From Novosphingobium sp. 28-62-57 (GTDB lineage: Bacteria; Pseudomonadota; Alphaproteobacteria; Sphingomonadales; Sphingomonadaceae): a stretch of 64,000 nucleotides of DNA. Below are positions 4,196 through 61,545 of the stretch, piece after piece. Below the pieces are notes generated by a model, which made no database searches, was not told the DNA's origin, and was given only the letters and a program-made list of their open reading frames with translations. Within the stretch, counting starts at the first letter, position 1; each line of letters opens with the position of its first letter. The stretch covers positions 16,254 through 80,253 of the forward strand of contig NCGO01000012.1 of assembly GCA_002256985.1 (NCBI GenBank). The letters are read 5' to 3'. The translations under genes were made by a program, and so were the position numbers.

Positions 4196-4203
4196 GCATG
4201 CAC

Positions 4204-9895: not shown

Positions 9896-9924
9896 TTAAA
9901 GCGCAGGAGCATCAGGGCCAGACA

Positions 9925-14665: not shown

Positions 14666-14666
14666 C

Positions 14667-15152: not shown

Positions 15153-15418
15153 TCGAATATGCTGTTGGCTATGCCTTCGTCTGTCTGGCGCTGGCCTTGT
15201 GCTGCAACGTGTGGCGATTGCTGAAGGGGCCGACCATTGGCGACCGGATCGTGGCGCTCGACACGATGGTCATCAACGTGATCGCCGTGATCGTCCTGAT
15301 CGGCATCGCCACCGCACGCGGCACTTATTACGAGGCGGCGCTGATCCTGGCCATGGTGGGCTTCATCAGCACGGTCGCTTACTGCAAGTTCCTGCTGCGC
15401 GGGGACATTGTGGAATGA
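15149..15418 (+). CDS. mrpF: Mrp antiporter subunit F
   Basis: The 89-residue protein has three membrane helices and the MrpF motif GPTIGDRIVALDTM near residue 30. It overlaps both neighbours by ATGA. It is the usual length for the family. Confidence 0.93.
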   Translation: MIEYAVGYAFVCLALALCCNVWRLLKGPTIGDRIVALDTMVINVIAVIVLIGIATARGTYYEAALILAMVGFISTVAYCKFLLRGDIVE

Positions 15419-15843: not shown

Positions 15844-15847
15844 CCAA

Positions 15848-15869
15848 CCCCGGGATTGTCACCCCGGGG
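15848..15869. terminator. Hairpin between convergent mrpG and katG
   Basis: CCCCGGG and CCCCGGGG, separated by 7 nt (ATTGTCA), can form a strong GC stem in the 47-nt gap between the two convergent genes. There is no T tract on either side. A two-way terminator is therefore plausible but not certain. Confidence 0.45.
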
Positions 15870-15890
15870 CTGGAGCATTCAGATTACGTC

Positions 15891-18527
<2,637 letters not shown>

Positions 18528-43897: not shown

Positions 43898-44977
43898 TTA
43901 GGCCTTTGTGCCAAAGGCTGCATGTAGGCCGGATTTCCATGCCTTGGTGAATTCGCGAGAGACCCGCGCTGCGGGCGCAACGAAATCGAAGGCGTGATAG
44001 GCTCCGGGCGTTACGTGGAGATCGGTGGGAACACCGGCTGCGTCAAGGCGGCGGGCGAACTCCACGTCTTCGTCTACGAACAGATCGAGAGTGCCCACAC
44101 CGATAAACGTGGGCGGCAGGCCCGCGAGATTGCCGACCCGTGCAGGCACGCTGCCATCGGGCACAATGGACGAGCCTGCGGGTGTGCCAAGAAACGATGT
44201 CCAGCCAAACCGGTTTGCCTCGGCCGACCAGCCGATCGTGCCGATATGCGGCGGTGCTGAGCGGGTTGATCCGGTGCGATCATCAAGCATCGGGTAGAGC
44301 ATCACGAGGCGGCACGGCTTGATCTGCCCTTTGTCCCGCGCCATCAGCGCGACCATGGCCGCAAGACCACCGCCAGCGCTTTCGCCCATGATCGCAATAC
44401 GCGTGGGATCGATGCCAAGCTGGCTTGCGTTTTTGACCATCCATTCCAGCGCGGCATAGTTATCAAGCACTGGGCCAGGGAAGGGCGTTTCCGGTGACAG
44501 CCGGTAGTCGACATTGACCACCACCGCGTCGAACTCTGCTGCCAGCGTCTGGCTGAATGCGGTAGAATTCCGCGCCCGGCCTGAAACCATGCCGCCGCCG
44601 TGGATGTGCAGGATGGCGGGGCGGGGGCGGCTCGAACGTTTGGCGCCAATCACTTCGATCGGCACGGGTGGAACGCCAGAAGAGGCTGGCACGATCTGCA
44701 TCAGCACGCCGGGGGCTGGCGCCATCAGCACCGGCGGCGGTACCCAGCCCGTGCGCATGGCGGGCAAAGTCGCAATGCTGGGGGCAGGCATGGGTTGCTT
44801 GAGCATCTCGCGCGCCGCTATGCGCAGTTCAGGATCGACCAGCTTTAGCGGATCTGCGGTTTCCCTTGCGCTCGCGGTGCTTGCGGGTTCACCTAGCGCG
44901 AAGCCGACGCCCGCAGCCATGGCGGTTGCCCCCATGCCGATGATGCCGAAACCCATCATTCTGCGACTGATCTGCAC
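43898..44977 (-). CDS. Exported alpha/beta-hydrolase, HSL-type esterase
   Basis: The 359-residue protein has HGGG at 126-129 (HIHGGGMVSG) and nucleophile S200 in GESAGGG, the signature of hormone-sensitive-lipase-type esterases; H in GAYHAFDF is the likely catalytic His. The N-terminus (MQISRRMMGFG, then a hydrophobic stretch) looks like a twin-arginine signal, so it may act in the periplasm. It starts with GTG, with GGAGA 5 nt upstream. It lies 29 nt after the HAD phosphatase gene and is probably the last gene of the carboxylase operon. A simple role would be to release a substrate from an ester. Confidence 0.87.
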   Translation of the reverse strand: MQISRRMMGFGIIGMGATAMAAGVGFALGEPASTASARETADPLKLVDPELRIAAREMLKQPMPAPSIATLPAMRTGWVPPPVLMAPAPGVLMQIVPASSGVPPVPIEVIGAKRSSRPRPAILHIHGGGMVSGRARNSTAFSQTLAAEFDAVVVNVDYRLSPETPFPGPVLDNYAALEWMVKNASQLGIDPTRIAIMGESAGGGLAAMVALMARDKGQIKPCRLVMLYPMLDDRTGSTRSAPPHIGTIGWSAEANRFGWTSFLGTPAGSSIVPDGSVPARVGNLAGLPPTFIGVGTLDLFVDEDVEFARRLDAAGVPTDLHVTPGAYHAFDFVAPAARVSREFTKAWKSGLHAAFGTKA

Positions 44978-45006: not shown

Positions 45007-45852
45007 TCAGCCCACCACTTCAAGCAGCTTTTGCAGATCGTCAAGCAGCACTGTTGGGGTATCGCGCGGGGGCAAATCGGTTCCTCTTCCCATGACGCCT
45101 GTGGCAAGGCCGATGGACTGCGCCCCCGCATCGTAGGCCATCCGCATTTCGAGTGCGGGATCATCGCCCACTACGACCACTTGCGAAGATGCCGACTTGG
45201 GCAGGCCCATGATGGTCAGCGCGGTTTCAAAAGCTTCTTTTGACGGTTTGCCCAGAATGCGTGGGCGCTTGCGGGTCATCGCCGTCAGCATCGCGTTGAT
45301 CGGAAAGCTGGCACCGATGGCCAGCCCGTTTTCGGTGGCAAAGAACGGCACGTTGCTGGCCGTGACCAGCCGAGCCCCCTTCCACAGAGAATCACATCCC
45401 GCTTCCAAGGCGTTGAAATCAAACTCGCGGAACCACCCGGTATAGACCGCTTCCACGCCTTCGGCAGCTTCTGACGGGCCGATCACGTCGAGCCCGGCAT
45501 CGATCAGCGGCGCGGCACAGCCCGCATTGCCCAGCACGCGCACTTTGCTGATACCCTGTTTTGACAGCCAGACCGCAGCGGACGATGAAGGGGTGAGCAT
45601 CTGCCGGTCTTCCACCGGGAAACCTGCATTGCGCAGCGACGCCGCATAGGCTGCAGGCGGCTTGGCCGTGCCATTGGTGAAAACCACGAATGGCGTGCCC
45701 GCGGCCTTCAGCGCTTCAAGCGTCGCCACTGCATGCGGCAGAGCGCGGTGCCCGCCGCTTTTGGAATCACCCAAGGCAATCGTGCCGTCCATGTCGAAGA
45801 TGAAGCCAGCGGCATCCTTCAGTCTTGCGGCGAATTCCGGGGAAATGGTCAA
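45007..45852 (-). CDS. HAD-IIA family phosphatase
   Basis: The 281-residue protein has nucleophile D20 and D22 in FIFDMDGT, VVFTNGTAKPP, and VVVGDDPALEM with a class IIA cap between, as in NagD, 4-nitrophenylphosphatase and pyridoxal phosphatase. It starts with TTG overlapping the carboxyltransferase stop (TTGA), so it is translated with the carboxylase. A phosphatase directly coupled to a biotin carboxylase is unusual outside aryl-ketone pathways that use phosphorylated intermediates. Confidence 0.85.
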   Translation of the reverse strand: MTISPEFAARLKDAAGFIFDMDGTIALGDSKSGGHRALPHAVATLEALKAAGTPFVVFTNGTAKPPAAYAASLRNAGFPVEDRQMLTPSSSAAVWLSKQGISKVRVLGNAGCAAPLIDAGLDVIGPSEAAEGVEAVYTGWFREFDFNALEAGCDSLWKGARLVTASNVPFFATENGLAIGASFPINAMLTAMTRKRPRILGKPSKEAFETALTIMGLPKSASSQVVVVGDDPALEMRMAYDAGAQSIGLATGVMGRGTDLPPRDTPTVLLDDLQKLLEVVG

Positions 45853-47321
45853 AGCGATGCTCCGGCATGAAGGGCAAGACGAAAGCCATTGCGCTCGATC
45901 ACCAGATCGCGCGCATCGGGTTTGGCCGCGAGTTTGCGCAGCAGTGAAAGGATCGGCGCGGCCTGCGGCGAATATGTCGCGCGCGAACGCCCGGCGGCCA
46001 GCATCGCATCGACCTGCTCGCCCGGCATGACCGCGCGCAGCAGGAATTCCTCGTCTGGCAGATGGGTGCCAAACTGGCGGCGCAGATCGGCCAGCGCCGG
46101 GAACATCGGCTCGTTTTCCAGCTCGCGCGAACGCGGGCGGTCCATGATCGTGGCGAGCACTTGCGGATCGACCGGTGAGGTCGGCTTGCCGAATTTGCCC
46201 ATGCAATAGCGGATCACCTGATCCGAAACTTGTGCATAGCGGCGGTCCCCTATCACGTTGAACAGCGCCTGCGTCATGACCATCTGCGGGAAAGGCGTGA
46301 CCATGATCGGGAAGCCCAGATCGGCGCGGACCTGCCCGGTTTCGGCGATCACGGCGTCCATCCGGTCGGCCAGCCCCAGCTCTTCCAACTGGCGCGCGAT
46401 GGTGGTCATCACCCCGCCCGCAATCTGATGCCGCAGGAAGCTGGCGTCGAAGTTTTGCGGCATACCCGGAGGTAGCCCCTCTGCCAGCGCGACCTGCTGC
46501 CAGTAGGTGGTGAGCCGTTTCAGCGCGGCCTTGTCCACGCCGACCTCAAAGCCCGCTTCCTCAAGGTTGGCGACCATGCGGTTAGCCTCGGGCAGCGAGG
46601 ACCCATCGCCACCGGGACCAACGCCGACGTGGATGGCAGATATGCCAAGCTTTGCCGCCTCAAGGCTGGCCATCATGCCAAGGCCGACGGTGGTGTGGGC
46701 GTGGATCTCCAGCGGGCGGTCGCCGATCACGGCCTTGACCGCCGGAACCAGCGTGCGCGCGCGGTCTACCGAAAGCAGGCCCGCCGGGTCCTTGATATAG
46801 AACAGGTCGATATGTGGGCTTTGCCCCACGGCGCGGGCGAAATCGGCGTAGAACTGGTCCGTGTGGATTTCCGACAGGGTGAAAGTGAGCGCCGCCATAA
46901 CCTCGGCATTGCCCTCTTGCTTCACCAGTTTGGCCGCTTCGATCACCGCGGGCACTTCATGCATCGGATCGAGCAGGACGAACCTGCCCACGCCGTTCAC
47001 CTGCAGCGCGCGATATACGAGGCGCATGAATTCAGGATCGGCCTGTTGCCACGCGATGAAGCGCAGGCCGGTGGTGATGAACTGCAGCGGCGTGGTCGGC
47101 ATCGCCGAAGCCATCCTGCGCAACCGCTCCCACGGGTTGTTGCGGAAATAGCGGACGGCAACGGCCATGTGGCTGGATGAGGTGAAGTCTATGGCGCGAA
47201 AGCCGCAGGCTTCGGTCAGCGCAGCGGCCTGCAGCATGTGGGCGGTATTGAGGCCGGTGGCACCCCACAGGCTCTGATTCCCATCGCGCATGGTAACATC
47301 GACGAGGCGGATCTGCGTCAT
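45849..47321 (-). CDS. Biotin-dependent carboxyltransferase, PycB/OadA-like, non-standard motifs
   Basis: The 490-residue TIM-barrel carboxyltransferase lacks its own biotinyl domain. Metal ligands H207 and H209 (EIHAHTTVG) and the lysine K177 expected to be carbamylated (YIKDPAGLL) are present. The usual pyruvate/oxaloacetate motifs are changed: RDAHQS is RDGNQS (12-17), and HTHDTAG is HAHTTVG. This argues for a substrate other than pyruvate or oxaloacetate. It overlaps the biotin carboxylase (ATGA) before it and the HAD gene after it. Confidence 0.85.
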   Translation of the reverse strand: MTQIRLVDVTMRDGNQSLWGATGLNTAHMLQAAALTEACGFRAIDFTSSSHMAVAVRYFRNNPWERLRRMASAMPTTPLQFITTGLRFIAWQQADPEFMRLVYRALQVNGVGRFVLLDPMHEVPAVIEAAKLVKQEGNAEVMAALTFTLSEIHTDQFYADFARAVGQSPHIDLFYIKDPAGLLSVDRARTLVPAVKAVIGDRPLEIHAHTTVGLGMMASLEAAKLGISAIHVGVGPGGDGSSLPEANRMVANLEEAGFEVGVDKAALKRLTTYWQQVALAEGLPPGMPQNFDASFLRHQIAGGVMTTIARQLEELGLADRMDAVIAETGQVRADLGFPIMVTPFPQMVMTQALFNVIGDRRYAQVSDQVIRYCMGKFGKPTSPVDPQVLATIMDRPRSRELENEPMFPALADLRRQFGTHLPDEEFLLRAVMPGEQVDAMLAAGRSRATYSPQAAPILSLLRKLAAKPDARDLVIERNGFRLALHAGASL

Positions 47322-48652
47322 TGGGCAAGTCCTGCAAGGAAGCCGGTGTCAACACCGCCCGCAATGAAGCGCGGGTCGGCCACGATGCGGCGATGAAGCG
47401 GGGCGGTGGTGGGCAGGCCTTCGATGTGCAGCGATTCCAGCGCCTTGCTGAGCCGGTCCACGGCCTCTTCGCGCGTGGGGGCATGAACGATCAGCTTGCC
47501 CATCAGCGAATCGTAAAAAGGCGGAACCTCGCCGTTCTGGCCGATGTGGGTGTCCACGCGCACGCCTTCGCCAGCCGGCCAAGCCGCGCGCGTGGCACGG
47601 CCCGGTGTGGGGCGGAAATCGGCGCTGGCGTCCTCGGCATTGATGCGCACTTCGATGGCGTGGCCGGTCGGGCGGATCATCGCCTGCGTCAGGCTCAGTG
47701 GCTTGCCCATCGCGACGAGCAATTGCTGCTCAACCAGATCGACCCCGGTGATCGCCTCGGTCACCGGATGCTCCACCTGGATGCGCGCGTTCAATTCGAG
47801 GAAATAGAACGAGAAATCGGTGGCATCGACGAGGAATTCCGCCGTGCCTGCGCCGCGATAGCCCAGATGCTGGGCAAGGCGGACAGCGGCCTGCTCAATT
47901 CCTTCGCGCGCGGCGAGCGGCATCGCTGGGGCAGGGGCTTCCTCGACCAGCTTCTGAAACCGGCGCTGGATCGAACAATCGCGCGTGCCAAGATGGATCG
48001 CGCTGGTGCCATCGCCCAGCAACTGCACTTCGACATGGCGGCCCATCGCCACGAAGCGTTCGACATAGACGGCGGCATTGCCGAACGCGGCCTGCGCCTC
48101 GGCCTGCGCCATGTCGAGCGCGGTATCGAGGTCTTCGGCGCGGTCCACCCGGCGCATGCCCTTGCCACCGCCGCCCGACACGGCCTTGAGCAGCAGCGGA
48201 TAGCCGGTCTGCGCCGCGCGGGTGTGGACATCGGCGCGGGTGGCAGCCTCTCCGCCGGGGAGGACGGGCAAGCCAGCCTCCACCGCCAATGCACGCGCGG
48301 CAAGCTTGTCGCCCATGCCTTCGAGCGTGGCGATATCCGGCCCAACGAAGCGGATGCCAGCGGCTTCAACTGCGCGGGCGAACGTGGCGTTTTCCGAAAG
48401 GAAGCCATAGCCGGGATGAACCGCATCACAACCCGCACGGATAGCGGCGGCGACCACGTTTTCGACCGAGAGATAGCTTTGCGATGAAGGGCCGGGGCCA
48501 ACGATCTCCACCTGATCGGCAAGCTGTGCGGGCAGGGATGCAGCGTCGGCAGCCGATGCGCCCAGCACGGTCTCAATCCCCATCGCGCGCGCGGTGCGGA
48601 TCACGCGGAGGGCAATTTCTCCGCGATTGGCGATGAACAGTTTGCGGATCAT
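47318..48652 (-). CDS. Biotin carboxylase subunit (AccC-like)
   Basis: The 444-residue ATP-grasp enzyme carboxylates biotin with ATP and bicarbonate. The sequence has KLFIANRGEIALRVIRTARAMG, HPGYGFLSENATFARA, the glycine-rich KAVSGGGGKGMR loop, and RIQVEHPVTEAITGVDLV. Its length matches AccC (about 449). It starts one base after the carrier gene and overlaps the carboxyltransferase. Because it is packed with a PycB-like subunit and not with accB, it is probably a dedicated copy. Confidence 0.92.
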   Translation of the reverse strand: MIRKLFIANRGEIALRVIRTARAMGIETVLGASAADAASLPAQLADQVEIVGPGPSSQSYLSVENVVAAAIRAGCDAVHPGYGFLSENATFARAVEAAGIRFVGPDIATLEGMGDKLAARALAVEAGLPVLPGGEAATRADVHTRAAQTGYPLLLKAVSGGGGKGMRRVDRAEDLDTALDMAQAEAQAAFGNAAVYVERFVAMGRHVEVQLLGDGTSAIHLGTRDCSIQRRFQKLVEEAPAPAMPLAAREGIEQAAVRLAQHLGYRGAGTAEFLVDATDFSFYFLELNARIQVEHPVTEAITGVDLVEQQLLVAMGKPLSLTQAMIRPTGHAIEVRINAEDASADFRPTPGRATRAAWPAGEGVRVDTHIGQNGEVPPFYDSLMGKLIVHAPTREEAVDRLSKALESLHIEGLPTTAPLHRRIVADPRFIAGGVDTGFLAGLAQ

Positions 48653-48653
48653 G

Positions 48654-49100
48654 TCAGCTCAGCCGCAACAGCGCTTCGCCCTTGGCCACAAGCGTGCCAT
48701 CGGGGACCAGAACGTGTGCAATCGTGCCGCTGCGCCCGGCGTGGACGGGGTTCATCAGCTTCATCGTCTCGACAATGCCGATCACGGTTTCGGGGCCGAC
48801 CTCGTCCCCCACTTGCACGAACGGCGGCGCGCCGGGTTGGGGGGCGTGGTAGAAGGTGCCGGGCAGTGGGGAACAGATCGCCTGCGGATCGGCAGCAGCA
48901 GCAGTCACTTCGGCAGCAACCTCAGCCCCGGCGCCTGCCCACTGCCACTCCTGCGTCAGCCCGCCCTCTGCGCCATCGCCTTTGGCCAGACGCAGGCGGA
49001 AGCGGCGGGTGGACAGATCGAGTTCGCGATAGCCGGAGCTATCAAGGATCGCTGCAATCTCGGCAATGTCTTCGTGAGTGAGGGGCAGGTCATCGGTCAT
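48654..49100 (-). CDS. Biotin carboxyl carrier protein (AccB-like)
   Basis: The 148-residue protein has an AccB-type N-terminus, an Ala-rich linker (about 42-75) and a C-terminal biotinyl domain. The biotinylation site is K114 in ETMKLMNPV. It is separate from both other carboxylase subunits, giving a three-piece enzyme. ATG at 49100 is chosen over an in-frame start at 49133 because it begins 7 nt after the preceding gene's stop. Confidence 0.9.
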   Translation of the reverse strand: MTDDLPLTHEDIAEIAAILDSSGYRELDLSTRRFRLRLAKGDGAEGGLTQEWQWAGAGAEVAAEVTAAAADPQAICSPLPGTFYHAPQPGAPPFVQVGDEVGPETVIGIVETMKLMNPVHAGRSGTIAHVLVPDGTLVAKGEALLRLS

Positions 49101-49107
49101 CTGGGGG

Positions 49108-50325
49108 TCAGTTCTTTGCGGCCAGCATTTCACGCGCGGCGGCGGTTACCGCGTCGGAAAAGGCCTCGTCGTTGAAATGGGCGTCTATGGCGGTGACGGG
49201 CACGTTTGCAGGCATGACCGATGCCAGATATTCGGCAAAGGGGCCGGGCACGGACAGGTCCTGCAGGTGCCCCTGCGCGCTGTCGTGGCTGGAAAAGCCG
49301 CCGAGCGGGGTGAACACGCGCACCGGGCCTTTGGCCTCGCGCACATTCGCGGCAAGGTGATCAGCCAGCCGCTTCAGATCATCCACCCCGGTACGAACGG
49401 CGGTGAGCTGCGGATTGTGCATGTGATAGCGACGGCCGGGGAATTGGACTTCAGACACGTCCAGCGGGCCACCGATGATGAAATCGGCATTGCCCGGCGC
49501 TATGATCGTGGGGATGCCCTTGGCCAGCCCCGCGCGGCCGCGATCCGGGCCAGAATCGGCCAATCCGCCAAACAGGTGATCGAGGATTTCGGTCTGTGAC
49601 AGGTCCAGCACCAGCGCCACATCCTTGTCCCGCGCCAGCGCATCGAGCGTTGGCCCGCCCGCACCGGAGGAATGGAACACCATGACCTCGCAGCCATCGG
49701 ATTCGAGCGCCTGGCGGATGCGCTTCACGCTGACTTCCGTGGTGCCAAGCGTGGTGATCAGCACCAGCGGCTTGTCCGGCCCCTTGTCGCGGTCATAGCC
49801 TTTGGCCATGCCTGCCACGGCATTGGCAGCATTGCGGAAAACATCGCGGCTGATGGTGTTAATGCCCGAGATATCGGTCACCGCGTTCATCATCGCGATG
49901 TCCTTCACGCCCATATATGGCTTGGTAAAGCCCGAGGCCATGGTCGAGACGATCAGCTTGGGCAGGCCATAAGGAAAGCTCTGCATCAGCGCGCCCGCCA
50001 GCGCCGATCCCATCGATCCGCCCACGGCAAGAATGCCCGAAACCGGGGACTTTGCATCCCACGCATGCGCAGCAGCGATAGCGCCCCGGATCATGGCATC
50101 CTGGCATTTGCCTTCATGGCCCAGCGCGCGGACGTCCTCGATGGTCATGCCCCCTGCCTGCGCGACCGTTTCGGGAGAAATCTCGGCCCCGCCCACAGTG
50201 CGGCGGACACTGGGGTCAAGATGCACCACGTCCACCCCCGCTGCTTCCAGTGCGGCGCGGGTAAAGTGGGCTTCCTCCTCCTTGGTATCCTGCGTGCAAA
50301 TGAACAGGACGCTTGGTCTGGTCAT
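49108..50325 (-). CDS. Tm-1-like ATP-binding domain protein (UPF0261)
   Basis: The 405-residue protein begins SVLFICTQDTKEEEAHF and contains GILAVGGSMGSALAGALMQSFPYGLPKLIVSTMASG and PGNADFIIGGP, typical of the UPF0261/Tm-1-like family. The plant member binds a viral replicase; bacterial members are of unknown enzymatic function and often lie beside a PEP-hydrolase-like TIM-barrel gene, which is missing here. It is the first gene of the carboxylase operon, so it may handle ATP-dependent activation of the substrate. AGAGG precedes the ATG at 50325; longer in-frame starts run into the regulator gene. Confidence 0.85.
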   Translation of the reverse strand: MTRPSVLFICTQDTKEEEAHFTRAALEAAGVDVVHLDPSVRRTVGGAEISPETVAQAGGMTIEDVRALGHEGKCQDAMIRGAIAAAHAWDAKSPVSGILAVGGSMGSALAGALMQSFPYGLPKLIVSTMASGFTKPYMGVKDIAMMNAVTDISGINTISRDVFRNAANAVAGMAKGYDRDKGPDKPLVLITTLGTTEVSVKRIRQALESDGCEVMVFHSSGAGGPTLDALARDKDVALVLDLSQTEILDHLFGGLADSGPDRGRAGLAKGIPTIIAPGNADFIIGGPLDVSEVQFPGRRYHMHNPQLTAVRTGVDDLKRLADHLAANVREAKGPVRVFTPLGGFSSHDSAQGHLQDLSVPGPFAEYLASVMPANVPVTAIDAHFNDEAFSDAVTAAAREMLAAKN

Positions 50326-50443: not shown

Positions 50444-51244
50444 ATGCTGGAACGACGGGTCAAGACCGTCCGCGCGCTTGAGCGTGGGCTGGACGTGCTC
50501 ATAGAAGTACAAACGCGCAAGGCGGCAAGCCTGCACGAATTGCATCAGGCAACAGGCCTGCCCAAGGCCACTTTGCTGCGGATGCTGGTCACTTTGGGGC
50601 AAAAGGGGCTGGTGTGGCAGAGGCTGGCCGATGGGGCCTATCTGCCGCATGTCGACCGGATCGAACGGGCCTCGGTTACCTCGCCCGCGCACATTGCCGA
50701 GATCGCCTCGCCCCACATGAAAGCGCTGTCGACTCGGGTGGCCTGGCCATCGGTGCTCGCCGCGCCGCGGCTGGATCACATGGAGATTCTTGAGACTAAC
50801 AGCCCGTTATTCCGATTGGATTCGGCAATTTTGGGTCCAGTCGGTGTCAAGCTGTCTTATATACATACGGCCACCGGACGCGCCTATCTGGCGGCTTGTG
50901 GCGATGCCGAACGCGATTCCATCATCGATCGTCTGCGCCCGGCCAACCCGCCCGAGGGCAGCGAGGCAGAGCTTCGGCAAATGCTGCAGCAGGTTCGCCA
51001 GCGTGGCTATGCGACCCGCGATCCGCTGCTGCCGTGGCCGGACCGGTCCAAACAGATGATCCTGCGCGATGGACGCCGGTCGATGGCCGTGCCGATCATG
51101 GTGAACGGCTCACCCACGGCAACGATCAATGTCACCTGGCCCGGCAGGCGCGGCGCAGATGAGGCGGTGGTGCAGCGCCATCTCGAAGCCTTGAAAGCCA
51201 CCGCACGCGCGATTGGCGCAGCGCTTGAAGAGAAGCCCAATTAA
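50444..51244 (+). CDS. IclR family transcriptional regulator
   Basis: The 266-residue protein has an N-terminal winged helix (about 8-65; VRALERGLDVLIEVQ, LHEQATGLPKATLLRML-like) and the IclR effector-binding domain (about 80-260, with HTATGRAYLAAC). It lies between two operons it probably controls: the divergent carboxylase operon and the MDR-led operon downstream. Effectors of this family are often aromatic acids. Confidence 0.93.
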   Translation: MLERRVKTVRALERGLDVLIEVQTRKAASLHELHQATGLPKATLLRMLVTLGQKGLVWQRLADGAYLPHVDRIERASVTSPAHIAEIASPHMKALSTRVAWPSVLAAPRLDHMEILETNSPLFRLDSAILGPVGVKLSYIHTATGRAYLAACGDAERDSIIDRLRPANPPEGSEAELRQMLQQVRQRGYATRDPLLPWPDRSKQMILRDGRRSMAVPIMVNGSPTATINVTWPGRRGADEAVVQRHLEALKATARAIGAALEEKPN

Positions 51245-51329: not shown

Positions 51330-52343
51330 ATGCGCCAATGGCTGATTTCTGCAGGAGCGACGTCGCTCGATCATCTCAAGCTTGTTGATACGGCACAGCC
51401 CACGCCCGGTCCGGGCGAAGTGGCAGTGCAGGTTCGCGCCTGTTCGCTCAATTTCCGCGACCAGATCATCCCATTGGGCTTCTACATGGGCGGCGTGGTG
51501 CAGCAGGACACAGTCCCCCTGTCCGATGGCGCGGGTGAAGTGATCGCGGTGGGGGAGGGCGTGTCCTCGCTCGCCGTTGGAGACCGTGTCGCGGGCATCT
51601 TCTTTCAGGACTGGATGGATGGCCCGCCCAATCCCGGCATGGGTGTGGCGCTGGGGGCGCCGCCAGCGCCGGGCATGCTGCAGGACGTGGTCGTGCTGCC
51701 CGAACATGGCGTGGTGAAGCTGGCTGAGACGCTTGACTATACCGAGGCCGCCTGCCTGCCTTGCGCTGGGGTGACAGCCTGGAACGCCCTGATGGAGGGG
51801 CCACGTCCGGTAAAGCCCGGTGACACTGTGCTTGTGCTGGGCACTGGCGGCGTGTCGCTGCTGGCCTTGCAGATTGCCAAGGCTGCAGGCGCAACCGTGA
51901 TTGCTACATCGTCATCCGATGAAAAGCTTGAGCGCGTGAAGGCCATGGGTGCCGACCACGTAATCAATTATCGCACCACGCCCGAATGGGGCGCAGAAGC
52001 TGCGCGGCTTGCCGGTGGCGGGGTGGACAAGGTCGTCGAAGTTGGCGGGGCCGGCACGCTCAAGCAGTCCATCGCCGCTGTCGGCTTTGCTGGTGAGATC
52101 GCGCTGATCGGTGTGCTGACGCGCGAGGGTGACACCAACCCGCACGGGCTGATGTTCAAGGGTGCGTCAATCCGCGGCATTTTCGTCGGGTCAAAGGGCA
52201 TGGCACAGCGGCTCAACGCCTTTGTCGATGCGCATCGGATCAAGCCGGTGGTCGACCGCAGCTTTGCGATGGACGCGCTGAAGGATGCCTTTGCCTACCA
52301 GTCATCGGCTGGGTTGTTCGGCAAAGTGGCGATTACGCTTTAG
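51330..52343 (+). CDS. Zinc-free MDR oxidoreductase, quinone-oxidoreductase-like
   Basis: The 337-residue medium-chain dehydrogenase has a GroES-like half and a Rossmann half with VLVLGTGGVSLLALQIAKAAGA (about 170-191). It lacks the catalytic and structural zinc cysteines, as in quinone oxidoreductases and enoyl reductases. It would reduce an activated double bond or ketone with NAD(P)H. GGGGAGAG precedes the ATG. Confidence 0.85.
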   Translation: MRQWLISAGATSLDHLKLVDTAQPTPGPGEVAVQVRACSLNFRDQIIPLGFYMGGVVQQDTVPLSDGAGEVIAVGEGVSSLAVGDRVAGIFFQDWMDGPPNPGMGVALGAPPAPGMLQDVVVLPEHGVVKLAETLDYTEAACLPCAGVTAWNALMEGPRPVKPGDTVLVLGTGGVSLLALQIAKAAGATVIATSSSDEKLERVKAMGADHVINYRTTPEWGAEAARLAGGGVDKVVEVGGAGTLKQSIAAVGFAGEIALIGVLTREGDTNPHGLMFKGASIRGIFVGSKGMAQRLNAFVDAHRIKPVVDRSFAMDALKDAFAYQSSAGLFGKVAITL

Positions 52344-52397
52344 CCGGGATTTTTGACGCTGACGCACGACAGATGCGGGGCGCGGGAGAGGAAGAGA

Positions 52398-52943
52398 ATG
52401 GCGCAAATGCTGGGCTTCGGCCAGCCCTTTGGGGGTGTGATGCAAACCGCTTTCGTGGTGGAAAACGTGCGGGAATCCATCGCACACTTCCAGCGTGATT
52501 GCGGGGCAGGGCCGTTCTTCCTGCTCGATCATTTTCTCGGCCCGGACCAGTCCTATCGCGGAGCGCCGTCTACGGCCGATGTCACCATCGCGATGGGCTT
52601 TGCCGGGCACATGCAGATCGAACTGATCCAGCCGCTCGACGGCAACCCGTCGGTCTATCGCGAAACCATCGAACAGCGCGGTTTTGGCTTCCACCATTTC
52701 GGCATCGCCTGCGCTGATGTGGAAGCATCGCTGACAGACTATCTGGCGTGCGGATACCAGCTTGCCTTCAAGGCTGCCGTGCCGACCGGCGGCAGCGTGG
52801 CCTATCTTGAAGGCGGGAATGCCGCCGCGCCCGGATTTCTGGAACTGATCCCCGCCACGCCGGGGATGGACGGACACTTCACTGCCATGTGGCAGGCCTC
52901 GCTCGATTGGGACGGGGCGGACCCGGTCCGGCCTTTCCTGTGA
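52398..52943 (+). CDS. VOC (glyoxalase/epimerase) family protein
   Basis: The 181-residue protein has two beta-alpha-beta-beta-beta modules. Potential metal ligands are E in MQIELIQP, H in FHHFGIAC and E in GFLELIP, resembling methylmalonyl-CoA epimerase and related VOC proteins. GGAGAGGAAGAGA before ATG 52398 fixes the start. VOC proteins of this kind recur in sphingomonad catabolic clusters, but the reaction is unknown. Confidence 0.8.
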   Translation: MAQMLGFGQPFGGVMQTAFVVENVRESIAHFQRDCGAGPFFLLDHFLGPDQSYRGAPSTADVTIAMGFAGHMQIELIQPLDGNPSVYRETIEQRGFGFHHFGIACADVEASLTDYLACGYQLAFKAAVPTGGSVAYLEGGNAAAPGFLELIPATPGMDGHFTAMWQASLDWDGADPVRPFL

Positions 52944-52977
52944 AAATAGCATGACAAACATGGTGGGGAAAACGGAC

Positions 52978-54210
52978 ATGGCGCAGGCTGGACCACGCAG
53001 CGGTGGCTATCAGGTATGGGTCACCGCACTGCTCAGCCTCAATTTCGGCATCCTGTTTTTTGATCGCAACGCGCTCAACTTCCTGATGCCATTCGTGCAG
53101 CCGGACTTGCAGCTTTCAAACACGCAAGTCGGCCTGTTCAGCTCGGCCTTGTCGCTCACCTGGGCGCTTTCAGGCCTTGCGGTCGGGCGCATTTCCGACA
53201 AGCTGGGGTCACGCAAGCCGGTGATTGTGGTGGCGACAGTGGCATTCTGCCTCTGCTCGCTGATTTCCGGCCTTGCATCATCTTTCCTGATGCTGCTGGG
53301 CGCGCGGCTGCTGATGGGCGCGGCTGAGGGCGGCGTCATGCCGGTCAGCCATTCGATGATCGTGGCTGAAGTCTCGCCCGAACGGCGCGGCCTTGCCATG
53401 GGTGTGGCGCAAAATCTCGGTTCGAACTTGCTGGGTTCTGGCCTTGCGCCCTTGCTGTTGGTGCCCGTAGCCGTGGCGGTAGGCTGGCGGACGGGGTTCT
53501 ATCTTGCCGCATTGCCCGGTTTGTTCACCGCGGCGCTGATCTGGTTCACGCTGCGCGAGCCGCCTGCAGAGGTGCACGATGCAGCCGCTCCCACGGTGAC
53601 GCTGCGCGAGGCCTTCCGCCATCGCAACGTGATCCTATGCGCGCTGATCTCAATATTGCTGGTGTCCTATCTGGTCGTTTGCTGGGCCTTCATGCCCTTG
53701 TTCCTGACCAAATATCGCGGCTTCGATCCTGAAACGATGGGCTGGCTGATGGCAACGCTGGGGATTTCCGCAGGGCTCGGCAGCTTTGTGGTGCCTGCGA
53801 TTTCCGATGCCATCGGACGGCGACCGGTGATGATTTTCTTTTCGTTCCTCGGCGTAATTCTGCCGTTGGCGGGGCTGTATTATCAGGGATCAACGCTGAT
53901 GCTCGCGGCGATCTTCTTCTTCGGGTGGGGGCTGAATGGCCTGTTCCCGATGTTCATGGCCACGATCCCGGCCGAGTCCGTTGATCCCCGCCTTACCGCA
54001 ACGCTGACCGGCGTGGTGATGGGGGCAGGCGAAGTGCTGGGCGGCGTGCTCGCGCCCCTTTTCGCAGGAGCCTTGGCCGACGTTTACGGGCTGGCCGCGC
54101 CGCTGTGGCTGATGCTGGTCTGCGCCGTGCTGGCGGGCGTTTGCACTTTGGGACTGATCGAATCTGCCCCGCGCGTGGTCGCGCGGCGCACCGCTCCGGC
54201 GTTTGCCTGA
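52978..54210 (+). CDS. MFS transporter, anion:cation symporter type
   Basis: The 410-residue protein has 12 predicted helices. The MFS motif after helix 2 is GRISDKLGSRKPV, and FFDRNALNFLMPF in helix 1 is typical of the ACS/AAHS groups that import organic acids such as 4-hydroxyphenylacetate, phthalate or hexuronates. ATG at 52978 has GGGG upstream; ATGs at 52951 and 52960 are in frame and possible. It probably imports the pathway substrate across the inner membrane. Confidence 0.87.
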   Translation: MAQAGPRSGGYQVWVTALLSLNFGILFFDRNALNFLMPFVQPDLQLSNTQVGLFSSALSLTWALSGLAVGRISDKLGSRKPVIVVATVAFCLCSLISGLASSFLMLLGARLLMGAAEGGVMPVSHSMIVAEVSPERRGLAMGVAQNLGSNLLGSGLAPLLLVPVAVAVGWRTGFYLAALPGLFTAALIWFTLREPPAEVHDAAAPTVTLREAFRHRNVILCALISILLVSYLVVCWAFMPLFLTKYRGFDPETMGWLMATLGISAGLGSFVVPAISDAIGRRPVMIFFSFLGVILPLAGLYYQGSTLMLAAIFFFGWGLNGLFPMFMATIPAESVDPRLTATLTGVVMGAGEVLGGVLAPLFAGALADVYGLAAPLWLMLVCAVLAGVCTLGLIESAPRVVARRTAPAFA

Positions 54211-54236
54211 GCCTTCACGCTAACGGGAGAAGAACG

Positions 54237-55193
54237 ATGGCTGCGCTTCTCAAGTTCAATACCGGCGATGTCGCTCCGTCCGAACGCGCGCGTTACTGGA
54301 ACGAGATTGCTGACCGCGCCTTTACCGGAACCTACGTGAATGTTCCGGGTGAGGATTTTGCCGGGCGCATGCTGGCCTGGCGGGTTGGCCAGCTCGACAT
54401 GATCCGCACCGATTCCACCCATTCGGCCGTAGGGCGCACGCCATTGCCGCAAAATGAAGAGCGGCTGATCCTGCATCTGCAATGCCGCGGCGTGAGCGAG
54501 CACAGGCAAAAGCGGGCGGAATGCGCGCTGCAGCCGGGCGATTTCGTTCTGGCCAGCCCGCATGAGCCCTATTCGATCAAGTTGAGCGGGCATGAAATGC
54601 TGGTGGTGGAATTTCCCCGCGCACCGTTGGTTGAGCGCTTTGCAGGTGTCGACGATGCATTGATGCAGCGGATGTGCGGATCAACACCGGGCGGGCGAGT
54701 GTTCCACGATTTTCTGCTCTCGCTCTGGCAGCATAGCGAGCGCGCGGGCGAGGACCCGGAGTGGGAGCAGGGCGTCAATGCGGTGTTCTATGACCTTGCC
54801 GCCATGGCGATGCGCGGGGCGCAACGGCCACTTGCACCCATCGCGGAAGATGATCTTCAGGCGCGGGTGAAGGCTATGGTGACGGCACACATCGAGGATT
54901 CGTCACTGCGCACCGCGTCGATTGCGCAGGCCTGCCGCATTTCGGTGCGCACCGTGCAAAACGTATTCGCCGCCATGGGCACCACGCCCACTGCCTATAT
55001 CCTTGAACAGCGTCTGCGCCGCGCGGCTGACCGTCTGGTTGCGCGGCCAGATGCCAGCATCACCGAAATCGCGTTCGAACTGGGCTTCAACGACAGCGCC
55101 TATTTCACGCGCTGCTTCCGCCAGCAGTTCGGTGCAGCGCCGCGCGATTGGAGGCTGGGCCGTCCGACCATCGAGCGCAGAACAATTTCATAA
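54237..55193 (+). CDS. AraC family transcriptional regulator
   Basis: The 318-residue protein has an AraC_binding_2-like N-terminal domain (about 20-190) and a C-terminal double helix-turn-helix (about 215-312: TASIAQACRISVRTVQNVF, ITEIAFELGFNDSAYFTRCFRQQFGAAP). It lies directly before the TonB receptor. It may control the receptor-cupin-Rieske genes while IclR controls the earlier block. Confidence 0.92.
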   Translation: MAALLKFNTGDVAPSERARYWNEIADRAFTGTYVNVPGEDFAGRMLAWRVGQLDMIRTDSTHSAVGRTPLPQNEERLILHLQCRGVSEHRQKRAECALQPGDFVLASPHEPYSIKLSGHEMLVVEFPRAPLVERFAGVDDALMQRMCGSTPGGRVFHDFLLSLWQHSERAGEDPEWEQGVNAVFYDLAAMAMRGAQRPLAPIAEDDLQARVKAMVTAHIEDSSLRTASIAQACRISVRTVQNVFAAMGTTPTAYILEQRLRRAADRLVARPDASITEIAFELGFNDSAYFTRCFRQQFGAAPRDWRLGRPTIERRTIS

Positions 55194-55351
55194 AATCAGC
55201 AGCCTGCTGCGCAGCATTTGCGCGTCAGTCCTGATCGGCTTGCGCGCCAGTGCAAGCATACGTTTCCGCCAGCCCCTATCACGCTGGCGAGATCTTGAGA
55301 GCGGCCCGCAAGGGTCGGTCCACCATCAAGGCCAAACAGGGAGAGAAAGAT

Positions 55352-57868
55352 ATGAGAATAGCATCGGTATCCATTGCTGCAATCGCAGCGGCCATCGCGG
55401 CACCGGCACTCGCTCAGGATGCCGCGCAGGCGCAGACGCAGGCCGAAGACAGCGCCGGCGGCATTGCCCAGATCGTGGTGACCGCACAAAAGCGCGCGCA
55501 GAACGTGCAGGACGTGCCGATCGCAATTTCGGCGTTCAGTGCCGAAGCGCTGCAGGAACGCGCCGTTGGCAGCGTCGCATCGCTCTCCAACATCTCGCCC
55601 AACGTAACGCTCGATGCCGGGACCCCGTTCTCGGGCTCGTCCGCCGTGCTTTCGGCCTTCATTCGTGGCATCGGTGCAAATGACTTTGCGTTCAACATCG
55701 ATCCGGGTGTGGGCGTGTACCTCGATGGCGTCTATCTCGCCCGCTCGGTCGGCGCGAACCAGGACCTGCCCGACGTTGAGCGCATCGAAGTCCTCAAAGG
55801 CCCACAGGGCACACTGTTTGGCCGCAATACCATCGGCGGTGCCATCTCGATCGTCACGCACGATCCGGGCGATGAATTCCGCTTCAAGGGCGATGTGACC
55901 ACCGGCCGCTTCGGCCTGCTGCAAACGCGCGGCACCGTCGATGTGCCATTGACCGAAGGCCTTGCCGCATCGGTCAGCTTCTCGACCAAGAACCGCGATG
56001 GCTATGTCAAGCGTATCGCATTCCCCGGCGCCAGCAACTTCGCGTCCACGCCGATCACCAACTACAAGGCGGCGGGCTATCGCAACATCGGCCTTGGCAC
56101 CGAAGGCGGGGACAACAGCTGGAACCTGCGCGGCAAGCTGCGGTACGACAACAAGACCAACCTGCGCATCATCGTGTCGGGCGATTACAGCAACATCGAC
56201 CAGTCGCAGCTCGCCAACACGCTGATCCAGACGACTCCTGCGGTGTTTGCAGGCACGTATAACTGCGCCATTCAGGGCACTGTAGCTGACAGCTGCGGGG
56301 GCGGTCCCCCTGCTTTTGCCTACCTCGGCGGCATCGGCGGCCTGAACAGCATCTTTGACAATCCGTCACCGTTTGGCGTCAATGTCGATGGCGATCCGCG
56401 CAACAACCGCCTGCCCTATGACAACCGCTTCTTGTCGGGCGACGTCGATGTCTCCTACGCCAACGGCAACAACTATTCGAAGCTGCAGTCCTATGGCGGC
56501 TCGGGCACGATCGAGTTCGATCTGTCCGACACGATCATGCTCAAGTCCATCACCGCCTACCGCGAGCTGCACTGGAATGCCGGCATGGACCTCGATGGTT
56601 CGCCGCTGAATTTCCTGCACACCAGCTTTACGATGAACCAGTACCAGTTCAGCCAGGAGCTGCAGCTGAACGGTTCGGCGATGGACAAGAAGCTGAACTA
56701 CGTGTTGGGCGCATACTTCTTCAAGGAAGCAGGCGATCTGCATGACTATGTGACCTTTGCCGAGGGTCTGCTGCAGGTTGACGGGCCAAACGATCTTTCG
56801 ACCAAGAACTATGCGTTCTTCGGCCAGATCGATTACCGCCCGACAGAACAGTTCGGCATCACCATCGGTGGCCGCTACACCAAGGAAGACAAGGAATTCG
56901 AAGGCTTCCAGTCGGATGCCAACGGCCTGACGTACAAGATCCTGAACCAGATCGGCGTGCCACCTTGCGCGTCTATCAACCCGATTTCGGATGACTGCCG
57001 CATTGCTGCTGGCTTCCCCAATCAGGGTCAGCCGCTGCGCTATTACATCGCCGGAACGCAGCGCAAATCGTTCAGCGACTTTTCGCCCAAGATCGGCCTG
57101 CAATATCACCCGACCGACGATGCGATGCTCTATGCCAGCTGGTCAAAGGGTTACAAGACCGGTGGCTGGACCACCCGCCTGTCCAACCCGCTGCCTACCG
57201 CGCCTGACTTCAACGAAGAAAAGGCAACGACATGGGAAATCGGCGTAAAGTCGGTCTTCCTCGACAATCGCCTGCAGGTGAATGCGGCAGCGTTCCAGAC
57301 CGACTACAAGGGCATCCAGCTGAACTTCCAGCAGGGCGTATCGCCAACCATTCAAAACGCAGGCGATGCGCGGATCAAGGGCTTCGAAGTTGAAGTCGTT
57401 GCTGCGCCCACCGATGGTTTCCTGATCAACGCATCGGTGGGTTACACCGATGCCAAGTACACCGCTGTGCTGGCAGGCGCTCAGGTTGCTGCCAATCCGT
57501 TCCAGGCGGGCGTGTTCCCGGGCGCTGATCTGCCCAAGACGCCAAAGTGGAAGTTCAACGTCAGCCCACGCTATGAGCTGGCGGTGGGTGCCGATGCCAA
57601 GATCGTGATTTTGGGTGACTGGACCCACACCACGTCGCTTTGGAACGATACCGAGCGGGCCTTCCTGCTGCAGCGCGGATCGACCGATATCGTCAACGGC
57701 AACATCACCTACAAGTCGGGCAACCACTGGGACCTGACCGTGGGTGTCACCAACATCACCGACGAGCGCTATCTGGTGACCGGTCAGGCGCAGATTGCCG
57801 GGGGCCAGTTCTACGGCACCTACAGCCGTCCACGCGAATGGTTCGCACGTCTCGGCGTTGAGTTTTGA
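55352..57868 (+). CDS. TonB-dependent receptor (organic substrate type)
   Basis: The 838-residue outer-membrane receptor has signal peptide MRIASVSIAAIAAAIAAPALA, a TonB box-like QIVVTAQKR, a plug with VPIAISAFSAEALQERAV and IEVLKGPQGTLFGRNTIGGAISIVT, and a barrel ending WFARLGVEF. This subtype is amplified in sphingomonads for uptake of plant- or lignin-derived and other hydrophobic compounds. GGGAGAG precedes the ATG. The protein is likely to import the substrate of the cupin/Rieske genes downstream. Confidence 0.92.
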   Translation: MRIASVSIAAIAAAIAAPALAQDAAQAQTQAEDSAGGIAQIVVTAQKRAQNVQDVPIAISAFSAEALQERAVGSVASLSNISPNVTLDAGTPFSGSSAVLSAFIRGIGANDFAFNIDPGVGVYLDGVYLARSVGANQDLPDVERIEVLKGPQGTLFGRNTIGGAISIVTHDPGDEFRFKGDVTTGRFGLLQTRGTVDVPLTEGLAASVSFSTKNRDGYVKRIAFPGASNFASTPITNYKAAGYRNIGLGTEGGDNSWNLRGKLRYDNKTNLRIIVSGDYSNIDQSQLANTLIQTTPAVFAGTYNCAIQGTVADSCGGGPPAFAYLGGIGGLNSIFDNPSPFGVNVDGDPRNNRLPYDNRFLSGDVDVSYANGNNYSKLQSYGGSGTIEFDLSDTIMLKSITAYRELHWNAGMDLDGSPLNFLHTSFTMNQYQFSQELQLNGSAMDKKLNYVLGAYFFKEAGDLHDYVTFAEGLLQVDGPNDLSTKNYAFFGQIDYRPTEQFGITIGGRYTKEDKEFEGFQSDANGLTYKILNQIGVPPCASINPISDDCRIAAGFPNQGQPLRYYIAGTQRKSFSDFSPKIGLQYHPTDDAMLYASWSKGYKTGGWTTRLSNPLPTAPDFNEEKATTWEIGVKSVFLDNRLQVNAAAFQTDYKGIQLNFQQGVSPTIQNAGDARIKGFEVEVVAAPTDGFLINASVGYTDAKYTAVLAGAQVAANPFQAGVFPGADLPKTPKWKFNVSPRYELAVGADAKIVILGDWTHTTSLWNDTERAFLLQRGSTDIVNGNITYKSGNHWDLTVGVTNITDERYLVTGQAQIAGGQFYGTYSRPREWFARLGVEF

Positions 57869-57933: not shown

Positions 57934-57953
57934 TCCACATTATGGAGTTTAAT

Positions 57954-58487
57954 ATGGCCGAAGCAGCCCACGCCGAATTCTGGAAGGACATCAAGCCGGT
58001 AGACAAGGTGTTCCGCGAAGGCGGGCTGCCCGAAGTCTATCTGCCCAAGATCGCCGAAGGTGACGAACGCTATTGGGTTCCGATTTCCGAAACAGTTTTT
58101 TCAAAGCCTGTCTGGATCAGCCCATCGAAAAACATGTGGGCCGACGTGCTGATGAGCAAGTCGGCAGGTCTGGTGAACCGCCATTACCATCCGCACCCGA
58201 TCTGGGCCTATACCATCAGCGGCAAATGGGCCTATCTCGAGCATGAATGGACCGCCACGGCAGGCGATTTCGTTTACGAAACCCCGGGCGAGAGCCACAC
58301 GCTGGTCTGCTATGAACATGAAGACCCGATGAAAGTGTTCTTCGTCGTCTCCGGCCCGCTGATGTGGCTGGACGAGGAAGGCAACACCGTCGGCCACTAT
58401 GACGTGTTCGATTACATGAAGGCCGCGCGCGAGCATTACGACAAGGTCGGCATTGGCGCGGACTATGTCGACACGTTGATCCGCTAA
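57954..58487 (+). CDS. Cupin, 2,4'-dihydroxyacetophenone dioxygenase family (copy 1)
   Basis: The 177-residue single-cupin protein has predicted metal ligands H77 and H79 (RHYHPH), E96 and H115 (GESHTL). The HxH-16-E-18-H spacing is shared with the next two genes. The family type enzyme splits 2,4'-dihydroxyacetophenone to 4-hydroxybenzoate and formate with O2 and iron. GGAG 6 nt upstream fixes ATG 57954. This copy is the most divergent of the three. Confidence 0.8.
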   Translation: MAEAAHAEFWKDIKPVDKVFREGGLPEVYLPKIAEGDERYWVPISETVFSKPVWISPSKNMWADVLMSKSAGLVNRHYHPHPIWAYTISGKWAYLEHEWTATAGDFVYETPGESHTLVCYEHEDPMKVFFVVSGPLMWLDEEGNTVGHYDVFDYMKAAREHYDKVGIGADYVDTLIR

Positions 58488-58501
58488 CAAGGACACCTGC
58501 C

Positions 58502-59038
58502 ATGAACGTGATGACCGCGCCGCCTTCGAACAAGGCCGAAATCGTTGACGTGCCCTTTGCGCACAAGGATCTGGTGGCGCGGCTCAGCCCCGGTGGGCGC
58601 TATATCGATGCGCAGACCGATGTGGACAGCCCGTGGGTGCCGTTCGGCGAAAATGCCGCGATCAAGCATCTGGCGTTCGATGTGCGGCAAAACCTCTATT
58701 CGAACATTCTGTGGGTCAAAAGCCCCGGCGTGATCGGCACGCACTTCCATCGCGGCACGATCACGATGGTCTGCCTCGAAGGCAGCGTGCGCTATCTTGA
58801 GTACGATTGGGTGGCGACACCGGGCGGGTTGATCCTTGAAACACCGGGCGAGAGCCACACGCTCGTCACTGACCACCCGCAGGGTTGCAAGCTGTTCGGG
58901 TGGATGCAGGGTCCCATCGAGTTCTACGACGAAAACGCCGTGCTGGTCGATACCGCCGACGTGTGGTGGTTCATCCATCACTACGAAACCTACTGCCGCG
59001 AAAACGGCATCGCCATCAACCCCAAGCTCTATCTCTGA
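58502..59038 (+). CDS. Cupin, 2,4'-dihydroxyacetophenone dioxygenase family (copy 2)
   Basis: The 178-residue protein has H81 and H83 (GTHFHRG), E100 and H119 (GESHTL), a complete metal site by pattern. It is clearly closer to copy 3 (shared SPWVPFGENAAI, HLAFDVR, PGVIGTH) than to copy 1. It begins 14 nt after copy 1. Confidence 0.8.
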   Translation: MNVMTAPPSNKAEIVDVPFAHKDLVARLSPGGRYIDAQTDVDSPWVPFGENAAIKHLAFDVRQNLYSNILWVKSPGVIGTHFHRGTITMVCLEGSVRYLEYDWVATPGGLILETPGESHTLVTDHPQGCKLFGWMQGPIEFYDENAVLVDTADVWWFIHHYETYCRENGIAINPKLYL

Positions 59039-59045
59039 GGCTCCC

Positions 59046-59579
59046 ATGGCCACGATGACCGCACCGCCTTCGGGCGCTTACAAGATTGTCGATGTTCCCG
59101 AACTCTACGGTGATCTGATCCGCACCAAGGGCGTCGAAGGCAGTTATGTCGGCTCGTCCGAAGCGGAAAGCCCCTGGGTCCCGTTTGGCGAGAATGCCGC
59201 GATCCGGCATCTGGCCTTTGACGTACGCGAGAACGTCTACGTCAATATCCTGTGGATCAAAGGGCCGGGCGTGATCGGCACGCACAAGCATCGCGGAAAG
59301 GTGTGGGCCGTGGGGCTGGAAGGCACCTTCCGCTATCTGGAATACGATTGGGTCTGTGGTCCGGGTGATTTCATCACCGAAACGCCGGGCACCGCGCATA
59401 CGCTCGTCACCGACAATCCGAACGGCATGAAAGCGCTGTTCCACATGCAGGGTGCCAACGAGTTCTTTGACGACAACGGCAACCACGTCGAAACGCTTGA
59501 TGTGTGGTGGTTCATGAATCACTACGAAAGCTACTGCAAGGAACACGGCATCGCGATCAACCCCGCGCTTTATCGCTAA
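59046..59579 (+). CDS. Cupin, 2,4'-dihydroxyacetophenone dioxygenase family (copy 3)
   Basis: The 177-residue protein has H80 and H82 (GTHKHRG), E99 and H118 (GTAHTL). It starts 7 nt after copy 2 with GAGG upstream. Copies 2 and 3 look like a recent tandem duplication that has kept all metal ligands, so both are probably active or form a mixed oligomer. Confidence 0.8.
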   Translation: MATMTAPPSGAYKIVDVPELYGDLIRTKGVEGSYVGSSEAESPWVPFGENAAIRHLAFDVRENVYVNILWIKGPGVIGTHKHRGKVWAVGLEGTFRYLEYDWVCGPGDFITETPGTAHTLVTDNPNGMKALFHMQGANEFFDDNGNHVETLDVWWFMNHYESYCKEHGIAINPALYR

Positions 59580-59589
59580 CGGTCTTACG

Positions 59590-60663: not shown

Positions 60664-60694
60664 AGAACGAAAATAGCAAAAACAGAGGATGCCA

Positions 60695-61534: not shown

Positions 61535-61545
61535 GAGCCACCACC

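Follow-up and report, generated by a model that had tools for sequence, protein, structure and literature searches.

A UPF0261 protein as the proposed single-component kinase of a probable hydroxyphenyl-ketone carboxylation operon in Novosphingobium

Introduction

In the Hpe pathway of Rhodococcus rhodochrous GD02, the two-component dikinase HpeHI is reported to phosphorylate the phenol, after which HpeCBA, a three-part biotin carboxylase, carboxylates the phospho-ketone, whereas carboxylation of the free ketone is not detectable; the NagD-type phosphatase HpeD dephosphorylates the product, and a coenzyme A (CoA) ligase and a hydrolase, encoded within the same operon, are proposed to yield the aromatic acid and acetyl-CoA (PMC9618137). 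The Acv pathway of Sphingobium lignivorans SYK-6, whose proposed reaction order differs from that in GD02, is described as having a two-component kinase (AcvAB), a three-part carboxylase and a phosphatase, with its last two steps encoded elsewhere (PMC13101465). The same source cites MarK (Hall 2025), a single-component kinase that starts a very similar hydroxyphenyl-ketone pathway in Novosphingobium aromaticivorans DSM12444, as well as the use of acetovanillone by N. aromaticivorans; the title of the MarK paper refers to multiple aromatic monomers. Here we analyse an operon in a stretch of 64,000 nucleotides from Novosphingobium sp. 28-62-57 (contig NCGO01000012.1, positions 16,254 to 80,253; the whole stretch is called the window), which encodes a UPF0261 (Tm-1-like) protein, the three parts of a biotin carboxylase and a HAD-type phosphatase.

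The operon resembles Hpe in holding a three-part carboxylase and a NagD-type phosphatase together, and Acv in combining kinase, carboxylase and phosphatase while the last two steps would be encoded elsewhere. It differs from both in its kinase, and from Hpe also in having no CoA ligase or hydrolase gene within the operon. Because HpeHI/AcvAB was not found and a UPF0261 protein stands in its place, the system is best read as a single-component version of the Hpe/Acv pathway rather than as a two-component member. We give a probability of about 90% to the reading that the operon encodes a module that phosphorylates, carboxylates and dephosphorylates 4-hydroxyphenyl methyl ketones (acetovanillone, 4-hydroxyacetophenone and possibly acetosyringone) with the UPF0261 protein as the kinase. 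An earlier note on this DNA, made from the sequence alone, had seen the kinship to Hpe/Acv aryl-ketone carboxylation, which is supported here, and had suggested that the Tm-1-like protein could be an activating ATPase, an idea likewise supported by its standing at the place of HpeHI, its match to Protein Data Bank entry 9mpy and the cited MarK. The note's further suggestion of an undescribed carboxylation system with an unknown substrate is not supported: the Hpe pathway has been published (PMC9618137), a version with the single-component kinase MarK is cited (PMC13101465), and the structure of a UPF0261 protein of 91% identity (9mpy) has been solved. The interest of the system lies in the exchange of its kinase and in a lead towards bisphenol A.

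The operon and its conservation

The five genes form a tight operon on the minus strand, read from 50325 to 45007, where the earlier note had located them. The leading gene (49108..50325), also first in that account, encodes a UPF0261/Tm-1-like protein of 405 amino acids, the proposed single-component hydroxyphenyl-ketone kinase of MarK type, which scored 188 bits with PF06792 and 212 bits with PF23189 (cut-off 27 each) and exceeded the cut-off of NF002674. It is followed by genes for a biotin carboxyl carrier protein (48654..49100; 148 amino acids; PF00364) with ETMKLM at the expected biotin site, a biotin carboxylase subunit (47318..48652; 444 amino acids; PF00289, PF02786, PF02785), a carboxyltransferase (45849..47321; 490 amino acids; PF02436, PF00682) proposed from its tree position and residues to be of a phospho-aryl-ketone type, and a HAD-IIA-type phosphatase (45007..45852; 281 amino acids) proposed to have the role of HpeD/AcvF. 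The phosphatase was above the cut-offs of PF13344 and PF13242, reached 79.7 bits against TIGR01460 (HAD-IIA), below the cut-off of 100, and matched the NagD structure 2c4n with an E-value of 4e-8; its gene lies next to those of the carboxylase, as in the Hpe/Acv pathway.

The UPF0261 and carrier genes are separated by 7 bases and the carrier and carboxylase genes by 1 base, while the carboxylase and transferase genes overlap by 4 bases, as do the transferase stop and the start of the HAD gene, a TTG read by eye. The carrier, carboxylase and transferase are indeed separate, as had been noted, but of the overlaps claimed among them only that between carboxylase and transferase exists. Promoter-like sites numbered 2, against 1.1 expected, and terminator-like sites 2, against 4.2 expected; the window contains no tRNA and no Rfam match at the gathering score.

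A pattern-based scan of genome contigs with the window transferase as query returned 68 transferase loci, of which 58 have a UPF0261 match. The operon association is beyond chance, since all five genes are matched in 55 of the 68 (some of the others end at contig edges) and the order is identical in all 55. The window transferase is 93-96% identical to the best named Novosphingobium records, and the UPF0261 protein was matched at E <= 0.001 in 21 of the 79 Novosphingobium genomes searched, including the window's own and one weak case (E 9e-5). The analysis assigns a likely mechanism to an operon that is conserved in sphingomonads; in its relatives, the annotations include acetyl-CoA carboxylase parts, biotin carriers and 'Tm-1-like ATP-binding protein'. 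In A. xanthus, S. bisphenolivorans and a Sphingomonas metagenome-assembled genome, second copies of the operon (L052-L054) have a transferase frame broken near its start, at about 9961-10060; these copies are identical over the stretch compared, and the same strains and assembly also hold a copy without the break (L046, L047, L048).

Exchange of the kinase genes

The survey of kinases drew on 82 loci that match the transferase, namely the 68 of the genome scan and 14 on plasmids. Many are closely related and hence not independent events. A UPF0261 gene was present in 60, a kinase labelled HpeHI in 12, neither in 10 and both in none. Two of the HpeHI-labelled loci (L077, L078) rest on weak partial matches, leaving 10 firm ones, each with HpeH- and HpeI-like matches; among the loci with neither kinase, L023 and L057 have little or no upstream sequence and the other eight are distant relatives (<37% identity). 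Ten HpeH/HpeI-type proteins from six loci all have the expected PEP-utilizers or PPDK_N domain.

The UPF0261 gene occupies the place of HpeH plus HpeI in otherwise matching operons. The plasmid operon of Pseudomonas putida YC-AE1 encodes acetoacetate--CoA ligase, Tm-1-like protein, carrier, carboxylase, transferase, HAD protein and amidohydrolase; that of R. leguminosarum BT01 encodes phosphoenolpyruvate (PEP)-utilizing and PEP/pyruvate-binding proteins, carrier, carboxylase, transferase, HAD protein, acetoacetate--CoA ligase and amidohydrolase. HAD matches adjoin the transferase in UPF0261-type and HpeHI-type loci alike. The transferase tree requires a minimum of two switches from one kind of kinase to the other, and an HpeHI-linked group (L037, L038, L043, L064; support 100) is nested in a branch (100) that is otherwise UPF0261-linked, except for one cut-off locus. 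Exchange on one carboxylase branch indicates that a UPF0261 protein most likely takes the role of the two-protein dikinase.

Another kinase-carboxylase-phosphatase set, with different partners, was observed on a Rhodococcus plasmid (L077, 1150-10771), where an AMP-binding protein, an annotated pyruvate, phosphate dikinase, three carboxylase parts, a thiolase and a tyrosine-type phosphatase are encoded.

The UPF0261 protein aligns over 403 residues with 9mpy, an entry named only 'UPF0261 domain-containing protein', at 91% rather than 100% identity. We infer that 9mpy is MarK and that MarK is a UPF0261 protein. The MarK pathway belongs to the same genus as the window and has a single-component kinase in place of HpeHI/AcvAB in an otherwise very similar pathway; the window operon is probably an orthologue of this published N. 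aromaticivorans system. The sequence family is also shared (E 9e-46) with tomato Tm-1 (3wrw, 3wrx, 3wry, 3wrv), an antiviral protein of plants whose C-terminal TIM-barrel domain has no counterpart in the window protein. In a UPF0261 tree, 25 carboxylase-linked proteins grouped on a single branch (100), separate from 28 further UPF0261 proteins of the class. Eleven of these 28, from 11 genomes of the class (L090, L091, L093, L094, L096-L101, L107), are fused behind an ABC transporter ATPase domain, which Pfam confirms in 11 of 11, and the fusions suggest that UPF0261 proteins may act on imported solutes. Among open-access literature, no paper was found by title or start of abstract on a UPF0261/Tm-1-like kinase in carboxylation, and neither 9MPY nor 'UPF0261 kinase' occurs in the best 30 of 414 papers surveyed.

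Tree and residues of the carboxyltransferase

A quick tree of 73 distinct transferase rows, three OadA and two Pyc rows among them, grouped the transferases linked to UPF0261 or HpeHI on a single branch (97), separate from the OadA and Pyc rows (100). Clustering with pyruvate carboxylases, together with efficient carboxylation of pyruvate, had been named in the earlier note as the outcome that would refute its proposal; the window transferase falls outside the Pyc and OadA rows compared, and neither clustering nor the Arg of LLRGxN places it in that family. The three separate biotin-carboxylase parts of the operon are of the phospho-ketone type, as judged against HpeHI-linked proxies rather than HpeB.

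Pyruvate carboxylase coordinates its metal through an Asp, a pair of His and a carbamylated Lys; its LLRGxN motif contributes an Arg that binds the pyruvate carboxylate. The window transferase, described earlier as lacking the canonical RDAHQS and HTHDTAG motifs, does have RDGNQS (residues 12-17) and HAHTTVG (residues 207-213) instead, though the positions that align to the metal ligands keep their D, K, H and H; carboxyltransferase family and metal-site residues are common to it and to two-subunit pyruvate carboxylase (5ks8) and oxaloacetate decarboxylase alpha (2nx9). Across 69 kinase-linked rows, identical rows counted, K177, H207 and H209 are invariant and D13 is present in 66, the remaining three being identical copies with a broken start. 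The site of the Arg (window T84) holds Thr in 69 of 69, whereas it is Arg in 5 of 5 OadA/Pyc rows, and N15 replaces the His of the OadA/Pyc rows in 66 of 69. Five distant relatives (<37% identity) have Arg at the Arg site in four cases and Ala in one. The Thr fits a substrate other than a 2-oxo acid, without proving it.

Two further loci with three-part biotin carboxylases were also observed. L084 (6929-13613) has an Arg-type transferase and lies near a 3-oxoacid CoA-transferase, a thiolase and a gene of the 2,4'-dihydroxyacetophenone dioxygenase family, with no kinase seen in the stretch; it is perhaps a biotin-dependent ketone carboxylase of another kind. The carboxylase of L076 (1068-14959), related to that of L084, lies near acetoacetate decarboxylase, carbonic anhydrase and a biotin-synthesis gene.

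Proposed pathway and alternatives

In the proposed pathway, the UPF0261 protein would phosphorylate the phenol with ATP, the biotin carboxylase would load CO2 on the carrier, and the transferase would hand this CO2 on to the phospho-ketone, at its methyl carbon, to give a 4-phospho-benzoylacetate. The HAD protein would then remove the phosphate, and a CoA ligase and an Amidohydro_2 hydrolase, encoded elsewhere, would cleave the beta-keto acid to the aromatic acid and acetyl-CoA. The kinase step is predicted from the replacement of the kinase, the 9mpy match and the cited MarK paper; carboxylation and dephosphorylation are predicted from gene type, tree and operon, their analogues having been shown for Rhodococcus HpeCBA and HpeD; and the final cleavage is suggested by candidate genes in this genome.

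The genome (4.1 Mb) has a single UPF0261 gene. The absence of the usual kinase genes remarked on in the earlier note extends beyond the window, since no HpeHI/AcvAB dikinase was found in the window or the genome. The only two PPDK_N matches both sit in one open frame of 931 amino acids, and a hidden HpeHI pair was rejected. The genome also encodes a protein 61% identical to the amidohydrolase of the P. putida YC-AE1 operon, near an AMP-ligase, a pyrroloquinoline quinone dehydrogenase-like protein, an aldehyde dehydrogenase, two glutathione S-transferases and a GCV_T protein; it is plausible that these genes form a lignin-monomer cluster that could supply the last steps.

Several points weigh against the proposed pathway. 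Kinase and carboxylase genes are reported as clustered in only 52 of 836 cases, a count apparently from Hall 2025 (PMC13101465), and the identity of MarK with a UPF0261 protein is itself inferred. HpeHI-linked transferases were stand-ins in the tree for HpeB, AcvD and XccC, none of which was included by name, and long branches among its distant rows were flagged by the tree program. The position corresponding to T306 varies (T in 62, S in 4 and G in 3 of 69 rows). The CoA ligase and hydrolase genes are not in the window operon, and the longest matches in the genome to the clustered acetoacetate--CoA ligase have 27-28% identity. No BKACE was found in this genome, and a BKACE was dropped as a candidate for its last step, though three bisphenol plasmids have an annotated 3-keto-5-aminohexanoate cleavage gene.

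A reading of the operon as an anaplerotic enzyme in three parts, either a pyruvate carboxylase or an oxaloacetate decarboxylase, whose neighbours are unrelated to it, would agree with the family models that score the transferase best (those for pyruvate carboxylase subunit B and oadA, none reaching its cut-off), with its best solved relatives (pyruvate carboxylase beta and OadA) and with its being the sole PYC_OADA protein found in the genome. Against this stand the transferase's branch separate from OadA/Pyc, its Thr for the Arg of those rows, a PEP carboxylase already encoded in the genome, and the repeated linkage of the transferase to a kinase-type gene and a phosphatase; on tree, residues and context this reading was rejected as barely credible. 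It is very unlikely that the same carboxylation pathway uses an unlinked enzyme as its kinase and the UPF0261 protein as an accessory (a chaperone, reactivase or regulator), as might be imagined from UPF0261 proteins in other settings, such as the ABC ATPase fusions: the protein stands at the HpeHI position in otherwise matching operons, no HpeI-like protein was found in the genome, and a single-component kinase is reported for the genus (PMC13101465).

The module might also act mainly on another phenol with an activated methyl or methylene, for example a side-chain ketone from lignin dimers. The conserved TonB-receptor, major facilitator superfamily (MFS) and dehydrogenase neighbours and a nearby VanA_C Rieske oxygenase fit a wider aromatic cluster, and the multiple monomers in the MarK title fit such a substrate. 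We consider this unlikely, given related operons in bacteria that use 4-hydroxyacetophenone and the acetovanillone use cited for N. aromaticivorans (PMC13101465), and retain the 4-hydroxyphenyl methyl ketones as the probable substrates.

Relatives in bisphenol A degraders

Related five-gene operons were found on plasmids of bisphenol A degraders: L073 on pBAR1 (5572-16357), L119 in YC-JY1 (3552-19791) and L120 (6686-17357). On pBAR1 of Sphingomonas bisphenolicum AO1 the five genes are preceded by an annotated carotenoid oxygenase, aldehyde dehydrogenase, thioesterase and 3-keto-5-aminohexanoate cleavage protein, and pobA lies close by; the thioesterase and cleavage genes lie upstream of the bisphenol-plasmid operons, and the carotenoid-oxygenase-family gene in L073 and L120. 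A carotenoid-oxygenase-type enzyme could split a stilbene intermediate of bisphenol A. S. yanoikuyae A3 and YC-JY1 carry all five genes, and the plasmid of YC-JY1 also encodes, ~8 kb from the operon, a cytochrome P450 and a 2Fe-2S protein. S. bisphenolivorans YL23, Croceicoccus bisphenolivorans H4, A. xanthus and pBAR1 share identical DNA from the UPF0261 gene to the HAD gene. The transferases of these sphingomonad operons are 68% identical to that of the window; for the P. putida YC-AE1 enzyme the figure is 53%.

YC-JY1 is reported to grow on 4-hydroxyacetophenone as sole carbon source, and P. putida YC-AE1 to remove it (data not shown in either source). The plasmid operons suggest a branch for 4-hydroxyacetophenone in bisphenol A degraders, but the published YC-AE1 data indicate another route: that paper gives a path via 4-hydroxyphenyl acetate and hydroquinone with an induced '4-hydroxyacetophenone hydrolase' gene, and its main text makes no mention of a carboxylase or Tm-1 protein. 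Rhodococcus equi R-001 instead induces a 4-hydroxyacetophenone monooxygenase, and no paper linking the operon, a biotin carboxylase or the Hpe pathway to bisphenol A was found in searches of one open-access library.

A broader reading would make UPF0261 a widespread family of small-molecule kinases, with the carboxylase-linked branch replacing and being replaced by HpeHI and, where plasmid-borne, serving as the 4-hydroxyacetophenone route of some bisphenol A degraders beyond the ester/hydroquinone route proposed for YC-AE1. Because of the YC-AE1 data, we hold this tentatively, at slightly less than even odds. If it is true, phosphorylation, carboxylation and beta-keto acid cleavage are the fate of 4-hydroxyacetophenone in some of these bacteria. 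For the fate of this ketone in bisphenol A degraders, and for the conversion of lignin ketones, the operon offers a set of genes that can be tested.

Neighbouring genes

An esterase-like alpha/beta hydrolase gene (43898-44977) begins on the same strand 29 bases past the HAD stop; none of the 68 loci matched it over half its length at E 1e-20. Upstream and divergent from the operon lies a gene for an IclR-type regulator (50444..51244, plus strand; PF09339, PF01614), the probable operon regulator, matched in 43 of the 68 loci; these neighbour counts give presence within a locus, individual positions not being compared. The conserved neighbours that follow on the plus strand encode a zinc-type dehydrogenase/reductase (51330..52343; PF00107, PF08240; 43 of 68), a glyoxalase-fold protein (52353..52943; PF13669; 39 of 68), an MFS transporter possibly for substrate uptake (52951..54210; PF07690; 37 of 68), an AraC-type regulator (54186..55193, start provisional; PF12833, PF14525; frame 54105-55193 matched in 36 of 68) and a TonB-dependent receptor (55250..57868; PF00593, PF07715; 40 of 68). 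Downstream of the receptor gene, positions 57942-62553 encode two cupin-like proteins, a Rieske oxygenase with a VanA_C domain, a short-chain dehydrogenase/reductase and a zinc-type dehydrogenase, which are possibly part of a wider aromatic cluster.

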